Below are positions 52,605 through 64,000 of a stretch of DNA of 64,000 bases, one piece after another. The stretch comes from Turnera subulata (Eukaryota > Streptophyta > Magnoliopsida > Malpighiales > Passifloraceae), in contig JAKUCV010002763.1 of the NCBI GenBank assembly GCA_028386065.3, positions 124,001-188,000 of the forward strand, written 5' to 3'. The notes under the pieces were generated by a model that saw nothing but the letters and a program-made list of their open reading frames with translations, ran no database searches and was not told the origin of the DNA. The position numbers were made by a program, and so were the translations under genes. The first letter of the stretch is position 1. The number at the start of each line of letters is the position of its first letter.

Positions 52605-52936
52605 TGTTAGACAATATTGCTTTGCTAATACCTCTTTGTCTCATACAGGTTTTGATATTGATAAACCAAGCCTGATTCAAAATGACAACAAACCGAGCAA
52701 AAAGAAATCACTCAAGGAGCACAAATGTGAAGCAAACAAGAGCACAAGATTTGAAGTCATAAATTAGAAAAACTAAGAACTCAATTGTACAAGGTTAACA
52801 CTCAAATTCTTCTAACTCAATTGTACAAGGTTAACACTCAAATTTTTCTAAGATATTAGCTCAAACAAAATCAATTTTTCTCATGCATTTCCTCATCAAT
52901 TTTAAAATGATTTTTTTTAGCACCAAAAATACACTG

Positions 52937-53364
52937 AACATCGATGTTCTATTTAAAAACATCGATGTTCTTGTTATCAAAAACTTTATGGAAAATTGGC
53001 AGAAGCTCAAAACATCGATGTTGAGTCTGTAAACATCGATGTTTTGATGACCGTTGCACTTAAATGCTCATGTTTTCAATTGCTTCATAAAAAATTGGCA
53101 GTGGCTAAAAACATCGATGTTGGGATTCCAAACATCGATGTTGTGATGACTATTTCACTTAAACGTTTTGGCAGTAGCTCAAAACATCGATGTTTTGCTT
53201 TCCAACATAGATGTTCTTACAAAACTTTGTTTTTGAAATGTTTTTGGCAGTAGCTAAAAACATCGATTTTCATTTTCCCAACATCAATGTTCTCTTAACC
53301 GTTGGCTCCAAAATTTCATATTTCCTGGCCAAACATCGATGTAACATTACTAAACATCGATGTT
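52937..53364 (+). repeat. Array of 6 paired AACATCGATGTT palindromes
   Basis: Twelve copies, 8 perfect and 4 with one change, are arranged in six pairs. Copies in a pair are 8-9 bp apart. Pair starts are near 52937, 53011, 53109, 53182, 53259 and 53333, spacing 73-76 bp with one of 98. Spacers repeat TTGGCAGT(A/G)GCT(C/A)AAA. The array is the same module as at 26364-27200 and ends about 98 bp before the TATA box. Confidence 0.95.
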
Positions 53365-53461
53365 GTGCCGTTATGTCAGAAACCTTTTTGCAACTTTCCA
53401 AGCTTATCTTATCTAAAGGTATTCATAAAGGTTTCCCAACGGTCATATAAGTTTTCAGACT

Positions 53462-53469
53462 TATAAATA
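53462..53469 (+). promoter_or_regulatory. LTR TATA box
   Basis: TATAAATA lies 98 bp after the array. It is preceded by CCAACGGTCATATAAG, a block also seen before the two other TATA boxes of this module. Confidence 0.7.
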
Positions 53470-54007
53470 GAAGTGTTAAACCTCTCTTGAGCTTTAATCA
53501 ACTCTTCATACATTAAGCATTCATTGATATACATTCATACACATTTTTATGAGCTAATACCTTTGAAATTTAAAGTTGCCTTATAGTGCTTACTTTGTTG
53601 CTCAATATCCACTCTTTAACAAAGTTTTTGTTTTGAGTATTGTAAGTGTTGTTATACACCATCTGGGAGGTTAGTTCCCTTGTTGTAATTCATTGGGAGA
53701 GGTTTTCTTTCTGTGAGAGAAGTCTTGAAGTGAGGTATCTTCAAGCAAGAGTGTTGAGGTTCGTGTGACTCGAATTCTCAAGCTGTAAATGGTTTGTTAA
53801 GCACCTGAAAGCCTAACGTAGATAGTGAAATCTTCGAGAGAGTCTCTCGAAGGTCTGGCCTAGCCACAAGTTGTGTGTGAACCAGGATAAAAATTTGGTG
53901 CCTCCTTTCCTTCTCTCTTTTAATTCTGCATTCATTCCTGCAAATTTCTATTTCGTCCGAAAAACGCTATTCACCCCCCCTCTAGCGTAGGGCGTATATC
54001 ATAACAA

Positions 54008-54061: not shown

Positions 54062-55411
54062 ATGGCTTCTTCAAGTAATTTATATGCAGGAATCATTGAA
54101 GGATAATCCACTACCCGTCCACCTCTCTTCGATGGCACCAACTACACATATTGGAAGGAGAGGAAGAGAATCTTCCTCCAAGCCAACAATTATGCTCTGT
54201 GGCTAATAATGAAGAATGGAGAACAAATTCCAACAAAGAAGGTTGGTGAAGCCATCGTAACAAAGACAGAGGCGGAGTACGATGCTGAAGACATCAAGAA
54301 GGTTGAAAATAATGCCAAGGCCATCAACTTGCTCTACTGTGCAGTAAACCCAGATGATTATAGAAAAATCTCATGTTGCACTACCGCCAAGGAGATGTGG
54401 GACAAGCTAGAGATTAACTATGAAAGAACCGATCAAGTCCGTGAGGCGAAGATTGACTCTCTCACAGCAGAACATGAACTCTTTCGTATGAAGGAGAACG
54501 AGAAGATTGAAGACATGTTCGAACAATTTTCCAAAATTGTGAACAATCTTCATGCTCTGAAGAAAGTCTACTCCGATAGGGACTTGGTTCGAAAAATTCT
54601 TAGAAGCCTCATACCCAAATGGCGTTCCAAAGCCGATGCCATCTATGAAAACATCGGGTTTTCAAACACAACTATTCACGGGCTTAGAGGTAATCTCCTC
54701 ACTTATAAAACCACCATTCTTAAGCCTTTTGTGCAGGAACCAAAGAAGAAAGACATAGCTCTAAAGGCCTCCACTTCCTCAACCCAAGAGTCAACCGAGA
54801 AGAACTCCAGTGACGATGATCAAGAGTTCGAACTTGTCATCCGAAAGTTCCACAAGTTCATGAAAAAGGAGTTTGAAAAGAAAGGAAGAAAGCAATCCGG
54901 TCCGCCCAAGTGCTATGGGTGCGGAGAACTTGGGCACATCAAACCCAAGTGTCCTAAAGCAAAAGAAGGCAAGAAGCCTTACAAGAAGCAACGGGCATAT
55001 ATCTCTTGGGGAGGTGATTCCGGGGATGAGTTAACCGATAGCGAGGAAGAGGAGATTGCCAACCTTTGTCTCATGGCACAGGAAGAACCACCGGAAGATG
55101 TAAGTACTACTCTCCCAAATGAAATTTCTGCTTTTGAAGAATTACAAAATGCCTTTGTTGAACTCTATGGAGAATATATTAGTGCTGCTAAAATCAACAA
55201 GGACTTAAAGAAGCAAATTACAACATTAGAAAAGGATGCTAAGAAATTAACAAGTGAAAATGAAAAACTTAAAGAAGAAAACAATTTTTTTAGAAAAAGA
55301 TGTTGTAACAAGCCTGAAAGTTCACCTAAGGAGTGTTCATCATGCAAGTCCTTAAAGAAACAAGTTGAGGAACTTGAAACCACCTTGAAAAAGTTCAATA
55401 CTCCACATTAG
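54062..55411 (+). pseudogene. Copia gag (UBN2 and CCHC) of the second SIRE-like element
   Basis: ATG 54062 (MASSSNLYAG) is followed by an in-frame TAA at 54104, then RPPLFDGTNYTYWKERKRIF and the UBN2 gag domain (TAKEMWDKLEINYERTDQVR, DSLTAEHELFRMKENEKIED). A CCHC knuckle CYGCGELGHIKPKC lies near 54910-54950, then an acidic stretch with NLCLMAQEEPPED and a C-terminal coiled coil (KQITTLEKDAKKLTSENEKL). The single stop (a likely CAA to TAA change) leaves 400 open codons after it. The frame then runs on past TAG 55409 with a second knuckle CHYCNRIGHIAPVC (about 55605) before the protease. Confidence 0.9.
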
Positions 55412-55766
55412 AACTTGAACTCTAAGTTAGATAACTTGCAATCGACTAAGCATGGATTAGGTTTCAAGAATGAACCTAAGAGGAAGAAATTCGAACCTAA
55501 GAAATCTAAGGCTTAAACTAAGGTAAACAAGACCAATAGAATAAATAAGCATGGACAATCTAACAATTACTATCACCCTAGGAGAATGCATATTCCTAAT
55601 GTTATTTGTCATTATTGCAATAGAATAGGACATATTGCTCCTGTTTGTTTCATTAGGCACAGGCATTGGGCACAACAAGAAGCTCACTACTACTATGCTT
55701 CTAACACTCAAGGACCCAAAATGGTTTGGGTATCAAAAACTCATTGAATTGCTTATGTAGGTATGC

Positions 55767-57390
55767 TTGAAGGCATCAAGTGTACTTTGGTACCTTGATA
55801 GCGGATGCTCCAAGCACATGACCGGAGAAGCATCAAAATTCCTACAAATAAAGCCATCAAATGGAGGAAACATTTTCTTTGGCGACAACAACAAAGGAAA
55901 GATCATCGGCATTGGGTCGGTTAGTAAAAATGAATCCTCCTCTATTGATAATGTGTTACTTGTTAAAGGTCTTAAGCATAACCTCTTGAGCATAAGTCAA
56001 TTATGTGACAAGGGAAATCGTGTGATTTTTATTCTAAGTCATGCACCGTAGAATGTCCTAGTGATAATAAGACTATTCTACATGGTGAAATAATTGACAA
56101 CATTTATATGGTTAACTTAGAAAATTCCTCATCAAATTTTTCTAAATGTCTCATGAGTAAAGAGGATAACATGTGGCTATGGCATCGTAGAATAGCTCAT
56201 GTTAATATGAACCTCTTAAATAAATTAGTTTCTCAAAACTTAGTAATTGGCATTCCAAAAATTAAATTTGAAAAGGATTCTATTTGTGATGCATGTCAAA
56301 AGGGGAAACAAGTACGAGCATCGTATAAATCTAAAAACGTTGTTTCAACGTCTAGACCACTTCAACTCTTGCACATGGATCTTTTTGGTCCCTCACAAAT
56401 CAAAAGTTTTGGTGGAAACTACTATGCTTTTGTGATTGTTGATGACTACTCTAGGTTCACTTGGACTTTATTTCTTACCCATAAAAGTGAAGCATTTAAT
56501 GTTTTCAAGAGTTTTCTTAAGAAAGTCCAAAATTAAAAAGGCTCATCAATTGCTTGCATTAGAAGTGATCATGGAGGAGAATTTGAACATGATCATTTTT
56601 CAAACTTTTGTGATGAATATGGCATTGAGCATAACTTCTCAGCCCCTCGGACACCACAGCAAAATGGTGTTGTTGAACCTAAGAACCGTTGTCTTGAGGA
56701 AATAGTAAGGACTATGCTCAATGAGGCAAATATTCTCAATTATTTCTGGGCAGATGCAATGAGTACAACATGCTACGTATTAAATCGAGCAATCATTAGG
56801 CCAATACTCAAGAAAACGCCCTATGAACTTTATAAGGGAAGAAAGCCTAACATTTCCCATCTTCGTGTCTTTGGATGCAAATGTTTTGTTCACAATAATG
56901 GGAAAGATAGGTTGGGAAAATTTGATGCAAAATCTGATGAAGGAATTTTTCTTGGTTATTCATTACGTAGTAAAGCATATAGAGTCTTCAATAGACGTAC
57001 ATTAACTGTTGAGGAGTCTCCTCATGTAGTATTTGCAGAAAATGATACTCGCTTGGCGAGAAAGGATTTTTGTGATGATTTTGCAGATACTCTTGAAAAG
57101 ATGTCATTGGATGATGAAGGAGAAGATCAAGGCAACTCAAACGAGGAAAACACTCCTGCGGAATCAACTTCTCAACCATAAGTAATAAATGAAGAGCAAA
57201 ACACGCAAGATACAACGGTTGATATCAACCAAGAACTTCCTAGAGAATGGAGAGAGTCGGAAAGCCATCCTCTTGACAAGGTAATAGGTGATATCAACCG
57301 CAGGGTAAGTACTCGTAATTCTCTTAGAAACACCGTAGGTCACATGGCATTTGTTTCACAAATTGAACCTACAACATTTCCGAAGCAATT
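55767..57390 (+). pseudogene. Copia protease and integrase of the second SIRE-like element
   Basis: Protease has the active-site motif WYLDSGCSKHMTGE (about 55785-55830). GAG-pre-integrase LWHRRIAHVNMNLLNKL and CDACQKGKQ follow from about 56173. The integrase core has LLHMDLFGPSQIK (about 56367), VIVDDYSRFTWTLFL, IRSDHGGEFEHD (about 56560) and VVEPKNRCLEEIVRTML (about 56670), so D, D and E are all present. A frame change separates protease from integrase, and an in-frame TAA stands at 56534. After PREWRESESHPLDKVIGDI (about 57235) another shift near 57390 leads into RT. Confidence 0.88.
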
Positions 57391-58895
57391 AACGATGAAA
57401 ATTGGAATTTGGCTATGCAAGAGGAACTAAATCAATTCAAACGAAATGACGTTTGGGAATTGGTTCCAAAGCCCGATGATCATACGATAATTGGTACGAA
57501 ATGGGTGTTTCGTAACAAACTAGATGAAAATGGAATAATTACTAGAAACAAAGCCAGGCTAGTAGCCATAGGATATAATCAAGAAGAAGAAATAGACTTC
57601 GAAGAAATATATGCACCAGTTGCACGATTAGAAGCTATTCGTTTATTACTTGCCTTTGCATCATCCATAAATTTTAAAATTTACCAAATGGATGTTAAGA
57701 GTGCTTTTCTAAATGGTTTCATCCAAGAGGAAGTGTATATTGATCAACCCCCAGGCTTTGAAGATCATGCATTTCCTAATCATATCTTCAAGCTTAAGAA
57801 AGCACTCTACGGTCTTAAGCAAGCTCCCCGAGCTTGGTATGAACGTTTGAGTAAATTTCTTTTGGACAATGGATTCAAAAGAGGGAAGGTTGACACCACA
57901 CTCTTTTTCCAGCATAAAAACAATGACATCCTTTTGATACAAATATATGTTGATGATATCATTTTCGGTGCTACTAATGTGTCTTTGTGCAAAGAATTCT
58001 CTGACATGATGACCAGTGAATTTGAGATGTCCATGATGGGAGAATTAACCTTCTTCTTGGGCTTACAAGTTAAACAAATGAAGGAAGGAACATTCATCTC
58101 TCAATCAAAGTATTGCAAGGAATTGCTCAAACGCTTTGAAATGGACCAATCAAAGGAAATGGCCACACCAATGAGCACTTCTGAGTACTTAGACAAGGAT
58201 GAGAAAGGTAAGGCAGTAGATGTCAAAAGGTATCGAGGTATGATCGGCTCTCTTCTTTACTTAACAGCAAGTAGACCAGACATCATGTTTAATGTTTATT
58301 TATGTGCATGGTATCAATCCTGTCCTAAAGAGTCACATTTAAAGGCAATAAAATGAATTATAAAATACCTTATTGGCACAATAAATGTTGGACTATGGTA
58401 TCCCAAAGGTTCTACACTACAACTTATAGGTTACTCCGACTCGGACTTTGCCGGATGTAAACTAGATCGTAAAAGCACAAGTGGAACATGTCACTTGCTT
58501 GGGAGTTCCTTATTTCATGGTTTAGTAAGAAGCAAGTCAGTGTAGCATTATCTACCACTGAAGCGGAATTTATAGCCGCCGAAAGCTGTTGTGCTCAAAT
58601 CCTTTGGATGAAACAACAACTTGAGGACTATGGTCTTAATGTCGATCATATTCCTCTTAGGTGTGATAATACTAGTGCCATAAGTTTAACGATGAATCCC
58701 GTTCTTCATTCAAGAACTAAACATATTGACATTAGGCATCACTTCATTAGAGATCACATTCTCAAGGGAGATGTAGCTATTGAATTTGTTGAAACAAAAT
58801 TTCAACTAGTAGACATTTTCACAAAACCCTTAGAGAAAGAGTCATTCTTTCGCATTCAAAGTGAACTTGGCATACTTGACTCTACAATGATCTGA
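57391..58895 (+). pseudogene. Copia reverse transcriptase and RNase H of the second SIRE-like element
   Basis: RT begins [20 protein letters not shown] and continues with [58 protein letters not shown] and the catalytic [10 protein letters not shown] (about 57947-57975). [13 protein letters not shown] and [10 protein letters not shown] follow. An in-frame TGA (58354, KI*IIKYL) and a shift near 58515 break the frame. RNase H then reads ALSTTEAEFIAAESCCAQIL, DNTSAISL and KHIDIRHHFIRDHI, ending ILDSTMI at 58895. Most catalytic residues remain, so decay is modest. Confidence 0.9.
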
Positions 58896-59027
58896 ATTTA
58901 TACATCTAGCATCATTTCATTATGTTACAAATTGCTAACTTGAGCGTTGGAGGGTTTTTCTAAGTCTGTTTTGCAGGTACCCTCACTTAGGCCATAAGAA
59001 ATGGGGAATAAGGCTTGCTGTGAAAAT

Positions 59028-59320
59028 AACATCGATGTTGGAAGCATCAACATCGATGTTGCAAGAATTTCAGAACACACCAAGTTGGATAGAAGAAAAT
59101 AACATCGATGTTGTGAGTGTCACCATCGATGTTGCAAGAATATCAGAACGCACTAAAGTTGGACAGAGGGAAATAACATCGATGTTCTAATCATAAAACA
59201 TCGATGTTTAGGGAGTCTACTTCGTTCCAGAATCATCTCAACACAACATCGATGTTCTGCCGTTGGAACTCAATTCTGAGAGCTTGAAACATCGATGTTT
59301 GCATACTAAACATTGATGTT
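59028..59320 (+). repeat. Internal array of AACATCGATGTT palindromes
   Basis: Nine copies (7 perfect, 2 with one change) lie at about 59028, 59049, 59101, 59122, 59175, 59197, 59245, 59288 and 59309, mostly as pairs 10-13 bp apart and pairs about 73 bp apart. Spacers repeat CAGAACRCACYAA(A)GTTGGA. This is outside any LTR, between the end of pol and the second ORF. Confidence 0.93.
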
Positions 59321-59394
59321 TGACTGTTAATTTAAAAAAAAATAGCCGTTAGAGGCTGCTTTAATGCTCCAACGGCTCTATTCTTGTGTCCATC

Positions 59395-59402
59395 TATAAA
59401 TA
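59395..59402 (+). promoter_or_regulatory. Internal TATA box before the second ORF
   Basis: TATAAATA lies 74 bp after the internal array. It is preceded by CCAACGGCTCTATTC, like CCAACGGTCATATAAG before the LTR TATA box. The second ORF's ATG is 89 bp downstream, after a CT-rich leader, which is the spacing expected for a promoter, short 5' UTR and start codon. Confidence 0.6.
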
Positions 59403-60402
59403 CTTGCTCTATCTTTCACTTCTACACACTACATTCATACCTTACTCTTTCTCTTCTCTCAAAATTCCATTCTTCTTACAATTCTCCAGCATGGCAGGTG
59501 GAAAGAAAGGATCGAAAGGAAAAGCTCCCATGATAGAAAAACACTCAAAGAAAAGAGGAGGTTCCTCAAGCTCAACCCCTCAATCTACTGTAGAAGGAAC
59601 TGAGGTTTGGTTTTCTTCCAGAAACAAGCTCAATCAACTCCAGTCAATCTTCACCAAACGAGCAATTGCACCTCCCTGTTACCTTCCAAACACTTACCCA
59701 ACAGAAAAGAAATTCAATCACCTTGAAGGCCATCTTCGGGAATCCCGGTTGTGGGAATTTGTAACCGGGAGGAAGTTCCAGTACAATGCAGTATGTGTGC
59801 GAGCCTTCTACTCCACTCTCCGCAGAGATGACGACGTTCTTTATGCTCACGTCAATGGAGTCACCATAACTATGACCTTGGAAGAATTCGGCATGCTTGC
59901 CCAATTGCCTCACCAGGGTGAGGATATTTCTTCATATAGGGGTGACCATTGGCTTACAAACTATGAAGCAACCCTTCTAAATGAGCTTGGCTTCACGGAA
60001 GTTGTTCGCAACCAATCCGGAAGGCCAACCATTCATTCCATCAACCCAGAATACTGCGTCATCTTCTACCTTGTCACTCGGGTGATAAAACCCAGAATTG
60101 GGAATCACACAACCATGTCTGTTGAAGATGAGAAGGTCCTTCACGCTATCATCCACGGGGCACAAATCAACTGGGCACGATTCATGCTTGTGCTTATGAC
60201 AGAACACGCATCCGCATTCTACGAGCATCCTCTTCCCTATCCCTTCTTGGTGACAGATATCTTGATGAACGCAGGTGTAGATACCCAGAAAAGGCGCTCA
60301 AATTCCTTACTCCAAGGTTTGGGAGATAAGTGATGCCACATTTCCAGCCGGATCATCCCAGGAAGGACGCAGGCCTACCCGAGCAGAAGGTCCTCGAGCA
60401 TC

Positions 60403-61712
60403 TGTTAGGAACAATAGACTAAAGCTATAGGGGGGGTGAATAGCTTATGACCGAAAATTTAAAACTTTGCAGGAAATGAAGTGCGGAATTGAAAAATAGA
60501 AGGACACAAGAGATTTTTATACTGGTTCACACACAACTAATTTGTGGCTAATCCAGTCCTTCAAGGTACACTTGAAGAGTTCACTATCTACCGTTAAGCT
60601 TCCGGGTGCTTAACAAACCGTTTACAGCCTAGGAATTCTAATCACAAGAATCCTANNNNNNNNNNNNNNNNNNNNNNNNNNNNNNNNNNNNNNNNNNNNN
60701 NNNNNNNNNNNNNNNNNNNNNNNNNNNNNNNNNNNNNNNNNNNNNNNNNNNNNNNNNNNNNNNNNNNNNNNNNNNNNNNNNNNNNNNNNNNNNNNNNNNN
60801 NNNNNNNNNNNNNNNNNNNNNNNNNNNNNNNNNNNNNNNNNNNNNNNNNNNNNNNNNNNNNNNNNNNNNNNNNNNNNNNNNNNNNNNNNNNNNNNNNNNN
60901 NNNNNNNNNNNNNNNNNNNNNNNNNNNNNNNNNNNNNNNNNNNNNNNNNNNNNNNNNNNNNNNNNNNNNNNNNNNNNNNNNNNNNNNNNNNNNNNNNNNN
61001 NNNNNNNNNNNNNNNNNNNNNNNNNNNNNNNNNNNNNNNNNNNNNNNNNNNNNNNNNNNNNNNNNNNNNNNNNNNNNNNNNNNNNNNNNNNNNNNNNNNN
61101 NNNNNNNNNNNNNNNNNNNNNNNNNNNNNNNNNNNNNNNNNNNNNNNNNNNNNNNNNNNNNNNNNNNNNNNNNNNNNNNNNNNNNNNNNNNNNNNNNNNN
61201 NNNNNNNNNNNNNNNNNNNNNNNNNNNNNNNNNNNNNNNNNNNNNNNNNNNNNNNNNNNNNNNNNNNNNNNNNNNNNNNNNNNNNNNNNNNNNNNNNNNN
61301 NNNNNNNNNNNNNNNNNNNNNNNNNNNNNNNNNNNNNNNNNNNNNNNNNNNNNNNNNNNNNNNNNNNNNNNNNNNNNNNNNNNNNNNNNNNNNNNNNNNN
61401 NNNNNNNNNNNNNNNNNNNNNNNNNNNNNNNNNNNNNNNNNNNNNNNNNNNNNNNNNNNNNNNNNNNNNNNNNNNTGATTGAAATGTGTTTTGTTTGAGC
61501 CAATGCCTAAGAGAAGTTGAGTGTTTTACCTTGTACAAATGGGTCCTAACTTCTCTTGCTCTTCTTTGCACTTCAACTCTTGATCATATCTTCACTAGAG
61601 TTCTTGATCACTTTGGTTGAGTGCTTGTTTGCTTGATTTCTTTTTGCTTCATCTTGGTTATGATCTTGGTTTGTCATTTATCAAAACCTGTAATGAATGA
61701 ACCATGAAGACA
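60403..61712 (-). repeat. Inverted related solo LTR containing the assembly gap
   Basis: The left end (TGTTAGGAACAATAG, then GGGGGGGTGAATAGC, TTCACACACAACTAATTTGTGG and CTTAACAAACCG) is the reverse complement of the LTR end region seen at 53790-54006. The right part (AACCTGTAATGAATGAACC, GTCATTTATCAAAACC) matches the LTR start of the first SIRE-like element. Total size with the gap is about 1.31 kb, near the 1.40 kb of the 5' LTR. Flanks GCATC and TAGGA do not match, so no target duplication is claimed. Confidence 0.75.
60656..61475. other. Assembly gap, 820 N
   Basis: There is a run of N only; open frames computed through it are meaningless. Confidence 1.
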
Positions 61713-61843
61713 TAGGACGATCAATTGACAGGATTGACATGGAGGTTCAAAGACAGGGTCACGCCCTTCGGTCCTATTTTGCTCATGTCAACTACTTGCC
61801 CCCACCAAATCACACCACATTTCAGGGATTCAACCTTGAAGAC

Positions 61844-61845
<2 letters not shown>

Positions 61846-61885
<40 letters not shown>
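61846..61885 (+). repeat. GAT trinucleotide microsatellite
   Basis: About thirteen GAT units in the second ORF encode a poly-Asp run. The correct frame appears to change just after it, near 61905, so repeat slippage or a nearby indel has shifted the acidic tail. Confidence 0.9.
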
Positions 61886-61888
<3 letters not shown>

Positions 61889-62149
61889 GATGATGATGAG
61901 GACTATTCGGGAATGAGGATGCTGATCCGATGGATGTGGAGGATGAAGAGGACCAAAATGATGATGAAGAAGAAGCAGCTCTTGATGGGGAGGAATCTGA
62001 GGATGATGACGGGAGCCAAAGCCCACTTTCTGAACTCTTATTTTTAGTTCTAGTCTTATACTTCTTTACTTCTATCTTTAGTATGCAATTGTCATTTCTT
62101 TTTGCTAATACCAAAAGGGAAAAGATCAAAGAGTATGTGTAATCAAATT

Positions 62150-64000
62150 AACCTCAGTTTCGTCGTTAATTCAAAAAATCATATGCATCAAGTTAAGGGA
62201 AATCAATTTGGAATTTGTGAATACCCGACCCAAAATCACTTGGACCCATTCACCTTTCCCTTACACCTTCTTCATAACCGTCATCCAACATCTTTGGAGT
62301 CGCCACCCAAATTTTATTAAGGGACAAAAACTTGGGAAAACCCCTTTAGGTGACTCCATTTAGGCTACTGAATAGCGAACCAAAGATGCTGGACCCGGGG
62401 ATTCGTCATGGATGGGAAGGTGTTATGCACCCATCCATATTGGGGCAAAACTTTGTGCAATTAGAGGATTTTGTATGCCTTGTCCAAGTGTGCAAATGTG
62501 AGCAGCAAAACACATAGTAACTGAATATTAGAAAGAAAGGGGAGAAGAAGAAGATTGGGCTTGAGTATCCACCACTAGAAACCACCTACGTACCCCTGCG
62601 ACCGGGTTCAAAGCCCACGTAGTTCTTGACATGGCATCACAACAATCACATCATCATCAACATCAACATCTCAACAATAGTTGGTCAGACAAAAAGGGAT
62701 TAGGATTACCTCTTGCAACCCTCCTCTAGCTTCTTGATTTGGGTTGTGCCTCCCACACAATTTCTCCCACTCCTCAACTCAATCTTGGAGTTCTTCTTGA
62801 TTTTCCCCCTTTGCTGTCTTCAATGGATGATGCTACCCACGAAATTCTCCCAGAGTTTTGCCTATGGAACTATTTCTTAATCTTGGAGAGATAGAGTTTC
62901 TCCAAGCTTCAAAGCGTTATGAAGAGTGTTTGTGCAATAGCATGTGTCTCGTGGAATGTGAGAGAGGGGTCCTATTTATAGTATTCTGGGTAACCTAGGG
63001 GCGTGGACCAACTTATTGATCAAGGTAATGGCCAAAAATCTGGGCCAAAACCGTGTAGAATCAGATTACGGGCGAAAATCGGGGAGAAAACGCGTTTCTA
63101 GGTGTGCATGACTGCCATGGCCGGCAGTCATCCTATGGATGACAGCCAGGCCGGGCGGTCATGGGTGGAAGACCACCCAGGCCCGGCGGTCATCCCGAGT
63201 TGGCCGCCCGTGCCTACGCGTCTCATCCGTCCTTTCCTTTTTTAGTCCCGATTCTCCCCTAATTCCTCCCTGATTGATCCTACCGCTTAATTAACCCGTA
63301 GACTGCCCAGAATCCCCGGCTTTCTTGATTACTACTCCTCTCAATCCTCTCCTAATTGACTAATTACACATTAATTCCTCATTTTATGCCGAAATCATAC
63401 CAAAAACATTCTTGCTATTAAGGAATGATATAACTCTAATTTTCCACAAAAATCAGAGCTAAATTTGTTTGCAAGCAAGGTGTTAATTGGTCGTGCAACT
63501 CTGAAGAAAAGTCCATACCTTATTAAATTGGACCCTTACATTTATCTTCAACCCAAGAATAAATATAATCAGGTTTAAATAAATAAACAAGCCCAAATTT
63601 AATGAGATAAAAATACATTTTAGCAATTTAGTCCTTAACATATCCTATGATTAGATCGTCTCACTAATCCTAGGCATATAAAAGTCTTAATTACTATAAG
63701 ATATGAATTCTACCAAAATTAAACTCCATTCATGCTTCAACCCAAGTCTTACTCATCAATCTTATGATTCAGACATGTCTGGAGTCTAATCTCAACATAA
63801 TTTTTATGGGTCAAATTTGGGTGTTCACAAATGCCCCTCGTTGGTGAATCTTTAAGACTTAAAGACGAAGCAACGCAAGGAAGGAACAACCAAATTTGGA
63901 TAACGAATGTGAGTGTTGTGGACCAATGGTTGGATCATCACATGCTCCACCTCGAGAATCATCTCATTCCGGGGTTTGTGATTGACTCATCTCATCTCTT
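62150..64000 (+). repeat. Probable Ty3/gypsy Tat/Ogre-type LTR, incomplete
   Basis: Landmarks are GGAGTCGCCACCCAAATTTT near 62296, GGGAAGGTGTTATGCACCC near 62416, a C/G-rich inverted-repeat patch (GCCGGCAGTCATCC, GGCCCGGCGGTCATCC) at 63115-63205, and AATGCCCCTCGTTGGTGAA near 63830. These phrases occur in large plant Tat/Ogre-lineage LTRs and their neighbourhoods. There is no protein-coding domain, and the second LTR is outside the window. Boundaries are uncertain. Confidence 0.4.

Follow-up and report, generated by a model that had tools for sequence, protein, structure and literature searches.

How does a plant retrotransposon express an open reading frame (ORF) that lies downstream of pol? 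The question is raised by a 64,000-nt stretch of the Turnera subulata genome (G000; 518.7 Mb in 7125 contigs), hereafter the window (C2515:124001-188000), in which an element carries a second ORF (ORF2) in the position of an env gene. The segment at 59028-59425, which precedes ORF2, is probably a promoter for RNA polymerase II that lies inside a Sirevirus, and it would yield a separate mRNA carrying ORF2 alone. The first-pass annotation had proposed that the second ORF has its own promoter; this stands as the best reading of 90 genomic copies of ORF2, with read-through from pol excluded, and is tempered by the 11 copies that lack a TATAWA motif and by the 73 that keep an acceptor-like site. 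For the expression of genes downstream of pol in Sireviruses, the segment offers a concrete candidate whose predicted start sites can be checked by ordinary 5′-end data and to which splicing is a clear alternative. The second gene of the element may, in other words, be switched on independently.

The element and its second open reading frame

The ORF2-bearing element is, on sequence grounds, a decayed Sirevirus (Ty1-copia), a placement based on its copia-type reverse transcriptase (RT), its Sirevirus-like primer-binding site (PBS) junction (CAATTGGTAGCGGAGC at 54005, with 2 mismatches relative to the Sirevirus form CA/ATTGGTATCAGAGC), and a C7 run at 53974, about 25 nt before the end of the long terminal repeat (LTR), as a polyC-rich integrase signal. 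The LTR at 53 kb on the plus strand is the 5′ LTR of this element, and the one at 26 kb on the minus strand is part of another, rearranged element and not the second LTR of this one. Within the window no 3′ LTR of the ORF2 element was seen, nor does 58896-62250 hold an exact polypurine tract AGGGGGAG, the element being interrupted and its 3′ LTR being absent from the window. The window copy is dead: gag-pol is broken by stops, and ORF2 is split by a piece of LTR in reverse orientation that contains an N gap. Between ORF2 and the 3′ end of the element, positions 62190-63830 form an LTR-like segment of another element (ends set by eye). The ORF at the end of pol, named from its position (Table 1), gave no Pfam match.

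In a protein search, ORF2 was related to a Turnera subulata protein (63%) and to proteins of Cuscuta campestris (39-45%); the relatives used here are P0001 (Turnera subulata) and six Cuscuta proteins (P0002-P0006 and P0008). All eight aligned ORF2 proteins open with MA(G/D)GK, which supports the ATG at 59491. The maximal hydropathy over 19 aa is 1.08 for the part of ORF2 in the window and 1.06-1.75 for five homologues; as these values reveal no clear membrane segment, "env" serves for ORF2 as a label of position. The AlphaFold model of ORF2 (pLDDT 41.8) was too poor for use, and the viral contigs scanned with ORF2 and RT yielded no relatives. Most of the 120 matches from a second protein search were reductases or epimerases caught by the tail of P0001 and were set aside. 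The gene model of P0001 itself looks fused, its last part matching cinnamoyl-CoA reductase and the rest corresponding to ORF2. Since the median dN/dS is 0.24 (range, 0.17-1.18, across 66 pairs drawn from 12 of the 35 stop-free ORF2s; median dN, 0.133; median dS, 0.568), ORF2 has on the whole been under purifying selection during replication of the elements.

Table 1. Features of the ORF2-bearing element in the 64-kb window, with coordinates counted from the first letter of the window
Feature	Position	Strand	Basis
5′ LTR of the ORF2-bearing Sirevirus	52605..54006	+	sequence, PBS junction, C7 run; ends by eye
LTR (U3) array, 12 palindromes at no more than 1 mismatch, six pairs 21 bp apart	52937..53364	+	
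LTR core promoter CCAACGG-N19-TATAAATA	53436..53469	+	
Reverse transcriptase RVT_2	57409..58356	+	Pfam PF07727, E=3.4e-76
End of pol (RNaseH region, name from position)	58488..58895	+	ORF; homologous piece upstream of ORF2 in 20/90 copies
Acceptor-like site CTAAC..TTGAGCGTTGGAG..TTTTGCAG/GTACC	58935..58976	+	matrix rank; YAG/GTA kept in 73/90 copies
Internal array, nine AACATCGATGTT palindromes	59028..59320	+	sequence and shuffles; array in 90/90 ORF2 copies examined
Inverted MSA-type box TCTAACGGCTA, exact YCYAACGGYYA	59343..59353	-	exact in 70/90 copies; column conservation 0.94
Second AACGG box TCCAACGGCTC, 1 mismatch to MSA	59368..59378	+	AACGG 19 nt upstream of TATAAA
Internal TATA box TATAAATA	59395..59402	+	TATAWA at -130..-85 in 76/90 copies
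Predicted C/T-rich leader, ATG-free	59425..59490	+	start expected near 59425 (inferred)
ORF2, first part, "Putative plant transposon protein"	59491..60333	+	Pfam PF20167, E=9.2e-14
Reverse-orientation LTR piece inside ORF2, with N gap 60656-61475	about 60412..61710	-	ends by eye
ORF with downstream acidic part of ORF2	61697..62047	+	likeness to P0001 by eye

Parts of the module upstream of ORF2

Nine palindromes lie upstream of ORF2 (at 59028, 59049, 59101, 59122, 59175, 59197, 59245, 59288, and 59309), seven of them exact; the other two (59122 and 59309) each carry a single mismatch. Farther downstream come CCAACGG (59369), TATAAATA (59395), and the ATG of ORF2 (59491), and the last stretch is rich in pyrimidines (74% C+T in 59425-59490) and free of ATG (59420-59490). 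The order described in the first-pass annotation, namely a nine-copy array, CCAACGG, a TATA box, a CT-rich leader, and the ATG, is therefore present in full. When 58896-59490 was shuffled (n=1000), the mean number of such palindrome sites was 0.004 and the maximum was 1; in 20,000 shuffles of 59321-59490, AACGG-N19-TATAAA never arose, and a pair with 15-23 bases between its members arose in four. These outcomes indicate that neither the array nor the pair is a product of chance. A search of both strands of the window found AACGG-N19-TATAAA three times (53438+, 59371+, and 26291-), each time adjoining a palindrome array, and only two other AACGG..TATAAA pairs with 0-60 bases between, both of them N34. 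The claim that the same order recurs in both LTRs holds in that this pair lies beside the arrays of each; the two LTRs that had been compared belong to different elements on opposite strands.

Copies of the module were gathered by a search of the same genome with ORF2, in which 1012 candidates gave 138 scored matches; upstream DNA was taken from the best 90 of the 138 (the 30 best plus the next 60), including the window copy. This sample is biased toward near relatives (63-100% identity), and its members are related by descent, such that counts of copies are not counts of independent events. All 90 carry 6-16 palindromes upstream (with no more than one mismatch each), the median distance from the last of these to the ATG being 188 nt. 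TATAWA falls at -130..-85 in 76 copies and at -170..-60 in 79. No other 45-nt window between -1300 and -130 has it in more than 4 of the 90, and among mononucleotide shuffles it appears in 244 of 4500 (5%). The motif is absent from 11 copies, 6 of which belong to the 35 whose matched part of ORF2 is free of stops; near-variants (e.g., TATACATA or TATTTAA) are present in several of the 11. As to the first-pass check that every intact family member keep both array and TATA, the array is present in every copy read and TATAWA in most. Conservation of the TATA columns (0.87) hardly exceeds that of their flanks (0.85 before and 0.80 after), and retention of the TATA box may therefore in part reflect common descent. 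In two of the 11 copies without TATAWA (L037 and L070) the array directly abuts the ORF, and in nine of the 90 an ATG occurs within the last 68 nt before ORF2.

The longer form YCYAACGGYYA we take to be an MSA-type box. It occurs in exact form on the minus strand at -230..-95 in 70 of the 90 copies. Of the 67 copies that have both CCGTTRGA and TATA, 58 show a distance of 48-50 nt from the former to the latter. The shorter AACGG or CCGTT is present at -200..-100 in 82 copies; counted in 60-nt windows, it is found in 0-8 of 90 copies from -1300 to -280 and in 48-52 from -280 to -160, a rise explained by the CCGTT that also follows palindromes in the array. At the position of the second AACGG box, many relatives have AACAG instead. 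AACGG is given as the site of MYB3R4 in one study (PMC4560428).

The sequence preceding the array differs among the 90 copies, which fall into five groups: 20 with RT and RNaseH of pol upstream; 46 (class B) with a different common upstream region, 42 of which match the RNaseH end into the linker; 10 (class C, e.g., L013, L014, and L017) in which gag is joined to an integrase piece and RT and RNaseH are missing; 8 with a further common region; and 6 that are single. TATAWA is kept in 19 of 20, 38 of 46, 10 of 10, 6 of 8, and 6 of 6 copies of these groups, respectively, within each of which copies share descent, indicating that the ORF2 module travels with its array and TATA box in several backgrounds, nonautonomous ones included. 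In 9 of the 10 class C copies, the integrase piece gives way to linker at 58953-58962; the junction types differ slightly. That such pol-deleted copies have kept ORF2 along with the module before it suggests a usefulness of ORF2 by itself.

Class B copies (e.g., L034, L058, and L086) also hold an antisense ORF, which points away from ORF2 and lies some 780-1500 nt in front of it, beyond the upstream side of the RNaseH-end remnant. An antisense ORF that begins with ATG and is at least 100 aa long is present in 28 of the 46 fetched pieces; 18 of these 28 have TATAAA within 120 nt before that ATG, and a 145-aa piece gave no Pfam match. With ORF2, this antisense ORF would form a divergent pair of genes carried by one retrotransposon.

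Splicing and read-through as routes to ORF2

A spliced mRNA that starts in the LTR, in the style of BAGY2 or Athila, might supply ORF2 from an acceptor at 58975 or, less likely, at 59488, with the array being passive or acting on transcription in some other way; we judge this to be rather unlikely. The AG at 58975 ranks first among the 380 in 54063-59600 (by a rough matrix) and is accompanied by a CTAAC branch-like motif. In 73 of the 90 copies (16 of 20, 39 of 46, 8 of 10, 7 of 8, and 3 of 6 in the groups as listed above), YAG/GTA is found no more than 140 nt upstream of the first palindrome. Pol-deleted copies are among these, with deletions that stop immediately short of the acceptor-like site. 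We had considered that the ten pol-deleted copies had lost the acceptor, and this was rejected: the upstream half, TTGAGCGTCGGAG, is missing from all ten, yet YAG/GTA is present in eight, and one more has TTTTGCAG without GTA. Because the site is kept in these copies, one argument for an internal promoter was dropped and the probability that we assign to that promoter was lowered. Set against splicing is the fact that the entire array would be part of an mRNA spliced in at 58975, as would the ATGs of -700..-100 (median, 16 per copy), and efficient translation of ORF2 from such an mRNA is hard to see. Furthermore, the acceptor columns are no better conserved than the sequence after them (0.86 versus 0.88), such that their retention may be due to common descent, and the AG at -3 before the ATG of ORF2 is a poor acceptor (AAG in 74 of 90 copies and CAG in 2), making splicing just before the ATG unlikely. 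Splicing also leaves unexplained a TATA box and an MSA-type box at a fixed mutual distance. As the internal start would lie downstream of the acceptor-like site, both splicing at 58975 and an internal start could be present. The site resembles a strong 3′ splice site; a search of the open-access literature with its motif returned a single match, unrelated by title.

Read-through from pol of the kind known from SIRE1 is excluded by the stops that close the ORF2 frame: all 90 copies have an in-frame stop in the 300 nt that precede ORF2, and there are several in the ORF2 frame of the window. SIRE1 is likewise a Sirevirus with a second ORF after pol, and PMC2829016 describes that ORF as expressed by suppression of a stop codon, whereas here a gap of about 600 nt separates pol from ORF2. 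BAGY2 and Athila, as presented in that source, also have a second ORF after pol and produce a spliced env-like mRNA, in which regard the acceptor-like site is a point of likeness; they differ in being Ty3-gypsy elements, and their description there includes no internal TATA promoter. Among mechanisms, the paper on MASiVEdb lists both stop suppression and an internal promoter (PMC3414828).

An internal promoter at 59028-59425 would work as follows. The phased AACATCGATGTT palindromes would serve as upstream activating sites, next to which one or two AACGG (MSA/MYB3R-type) boxes stand, and the TATA box, roughly 100 nt upstream of the ATG, would set a start, followed by the pyrimidine-rich leader. 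Given the same grammar in the LTR, one set of host factors would probably drive both the genomic RNA and the ORF2 mRNA. The parts themselves, the order in which they stand, their persistence across copies, and the phasing are observed; the transcript start within the segment, the factors that bind it, and the regulation shared with the LTR are what we infer from them.

Palindrome phasing and the grammar shared with the LTR

Palindromes are arranged in pairs, all 22 of which are spaced at 20-22 bp in the window, where 59245 is unpaired. Distances between neighbors in the 90 internal arrays (n=1025) cluster at 21, 42-44, 51-54, 63-66, and 73-74 bp, with a vector strength at 10.5 bp of R=0.796 (1025 distances; locus bootstrap, 0.778-0.813), and the between-pair distances (>23 bp) alone give R=0.678. 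Of the distances, 88% deviate by no more than 2 bp from some multiple of 10.5, versus the 38% expected. Arrays in the rest of the window and in L041-L044 have a vector strength of 0.81 (97 distances). In the window, the palindromes of internal and LTR arrays are 95-97% alike and the spacers 31-33%. This helical register suggests that protein binds on one face of the DNA, and the phasing, along with conservation of the palindromes beyond that of the spacers, favors such binding over RNA hairpins.

An action of the palindromes as RNA or chromatin, in which hairpins lead to small RNAs, silencing, or recombination and the TATA box is incidental, strikes us as very unlikely. It would fit with the strong fold of the RNA of 59020-59330 (z=-7.0) and with the CpG transitions among palindrome substitutions (in the window, 4 of 10; in the copies, 111 of 503, where end positions change oftener still), which methylated DNA would be expected to show. 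It would also fit with the other array segments sampled (40 kb), of which only one in nine is flanked by TATAWA at 160 nt or less on either side (two of the nine being one split array), a finding that likewise tells against the promoter reading. Hairpins, however, have no need of a 10.5-bp phasing between pairs, and the TATA and AACGG boxes recur at fixed mutual distances. The 12-mer AACATCGATGTT occurs 76,101 times in the 518.7-Mb genome, compared with 63 times for a reversed control, and a phased palindrome present in some 76,000 copies in one genome points to a DNA-binding factor.

Matches to the paired palindrome elsewhere were judged unrelated: one was in a viral contig (a few 22-nt repeats), and the others were in five bacterial contigs, of which the four inspected hold 21-nt tandem repeats that are probably coding. 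Those of L003-L005 (bacterial bin Kiruna_bin-04925) and L002 (Tannerella) are 21-nt tandem repeats with the same palindrome pair, presumably by coincidence.

Palindromic boxes upstream of the TATA box of Sirevirus LTRs, which appear again before the env-like gene in nine env-containing elements, are described by Bousios et al. (2010, PMC2829016), who place 77 of 79 linker copies of the boxes before ENV in these nine elements. An internal promoter had been proposed by Peterson-Burch and Voytas in 2002, as cited there, and the 2010 account takes the boxes as support without conclusively identifying a promoter. The novelty that the first-pass annotation saw, relative to expression solely from the LTR or by splicing, is to this extent reduced: LTR-type boxes and the idea of an internal promoter date from 2010 at the latest (PMC2829016), in an account that identifies no promoter conclusively. 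The arrays described here resemble those repeated-motif (RM) boxes in placing palindromes before both the TATA box of the LTR and an env-like ORF, and they differ in their core, which is CGG-CCG in 12 of 13 RM boxes and ATCGAT here. The nearest RM box, ACAATCGATTGT of Tnd-1, is the one exception to CGG-CCG and comes from an element given there as lacking ENV and a conserved TATA box. Where PMC2829016 could not conclusively place a promoter before ENV, the present family shows a TATA box, AACGG boxes, constant spacing, and a helical register of the palindromes. Searches of the open-access literature returned no published description of an internal core promoter, no match for MSA, retrotransposon, and LTR together, and, among the matches listed for the palindrome string, nothing on plant retrotransposons by title. 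What is new here is a positioned candidate core promoter in many copies, its helical register, its presence in pol-deleted copies, and its lack of sequence likeness to the LTR. Foamy viruses, which are animal retroviruses, use an internal second promoter for downstream ORFs; we claim no kinship of sequence or factor with them.

The LTR promoter was compared with the internal one in ten LTR copies, mostly on contigs with an ORF2 copy, chosen from 40 scored matches among 1063 candidates. Eight of the ten have CAACNG-N19-TATAWA, the exceptions being L112, with CAGCGG, and L105, with TATAWA and no matching box. Local scores between LTR and internal promoters did not exceed the best of 100 shuffles in any of eight pairs (seven with both members on the same strand of one contig, in one case at a distance of 16 kb, and the eighth, L112/L104, on two contigs); one LTR-LTR comparison scores 248, and one internal-internal comparison 118. 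The LTR and internal promoters have a common grammar and do not share sequence. A functionless LTR fragment, recently captured, would account for the shared motifs and is to be rejected as extremely improbable, given this lack of likeness and an array present in all 90 copies and in several upstream contexts. The internal module may have arisen in parallel or be of very old origin. Tentatively, and with some doubt, we suggest that the two promoters, unrelated in sequence and alike in grammar, each combining an array of 12-bp palindromes in 10.5-bp helical register with MSA-type AACGG boxes and a TATA box, may answer to a single host regulator, possibly together with a G2/M-phase MYB3R, that would turn on the genomic RNA and a separate ORF2 mRNA at once, even in nonautonomous copies without pol. 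A further point against the promoter reading comes from one LTR (L042:4685-4918, on contig C8), whose array appears by eye to be placed downstream of the TATA box and ahead of the PBS, i.e., in the transcribed part.
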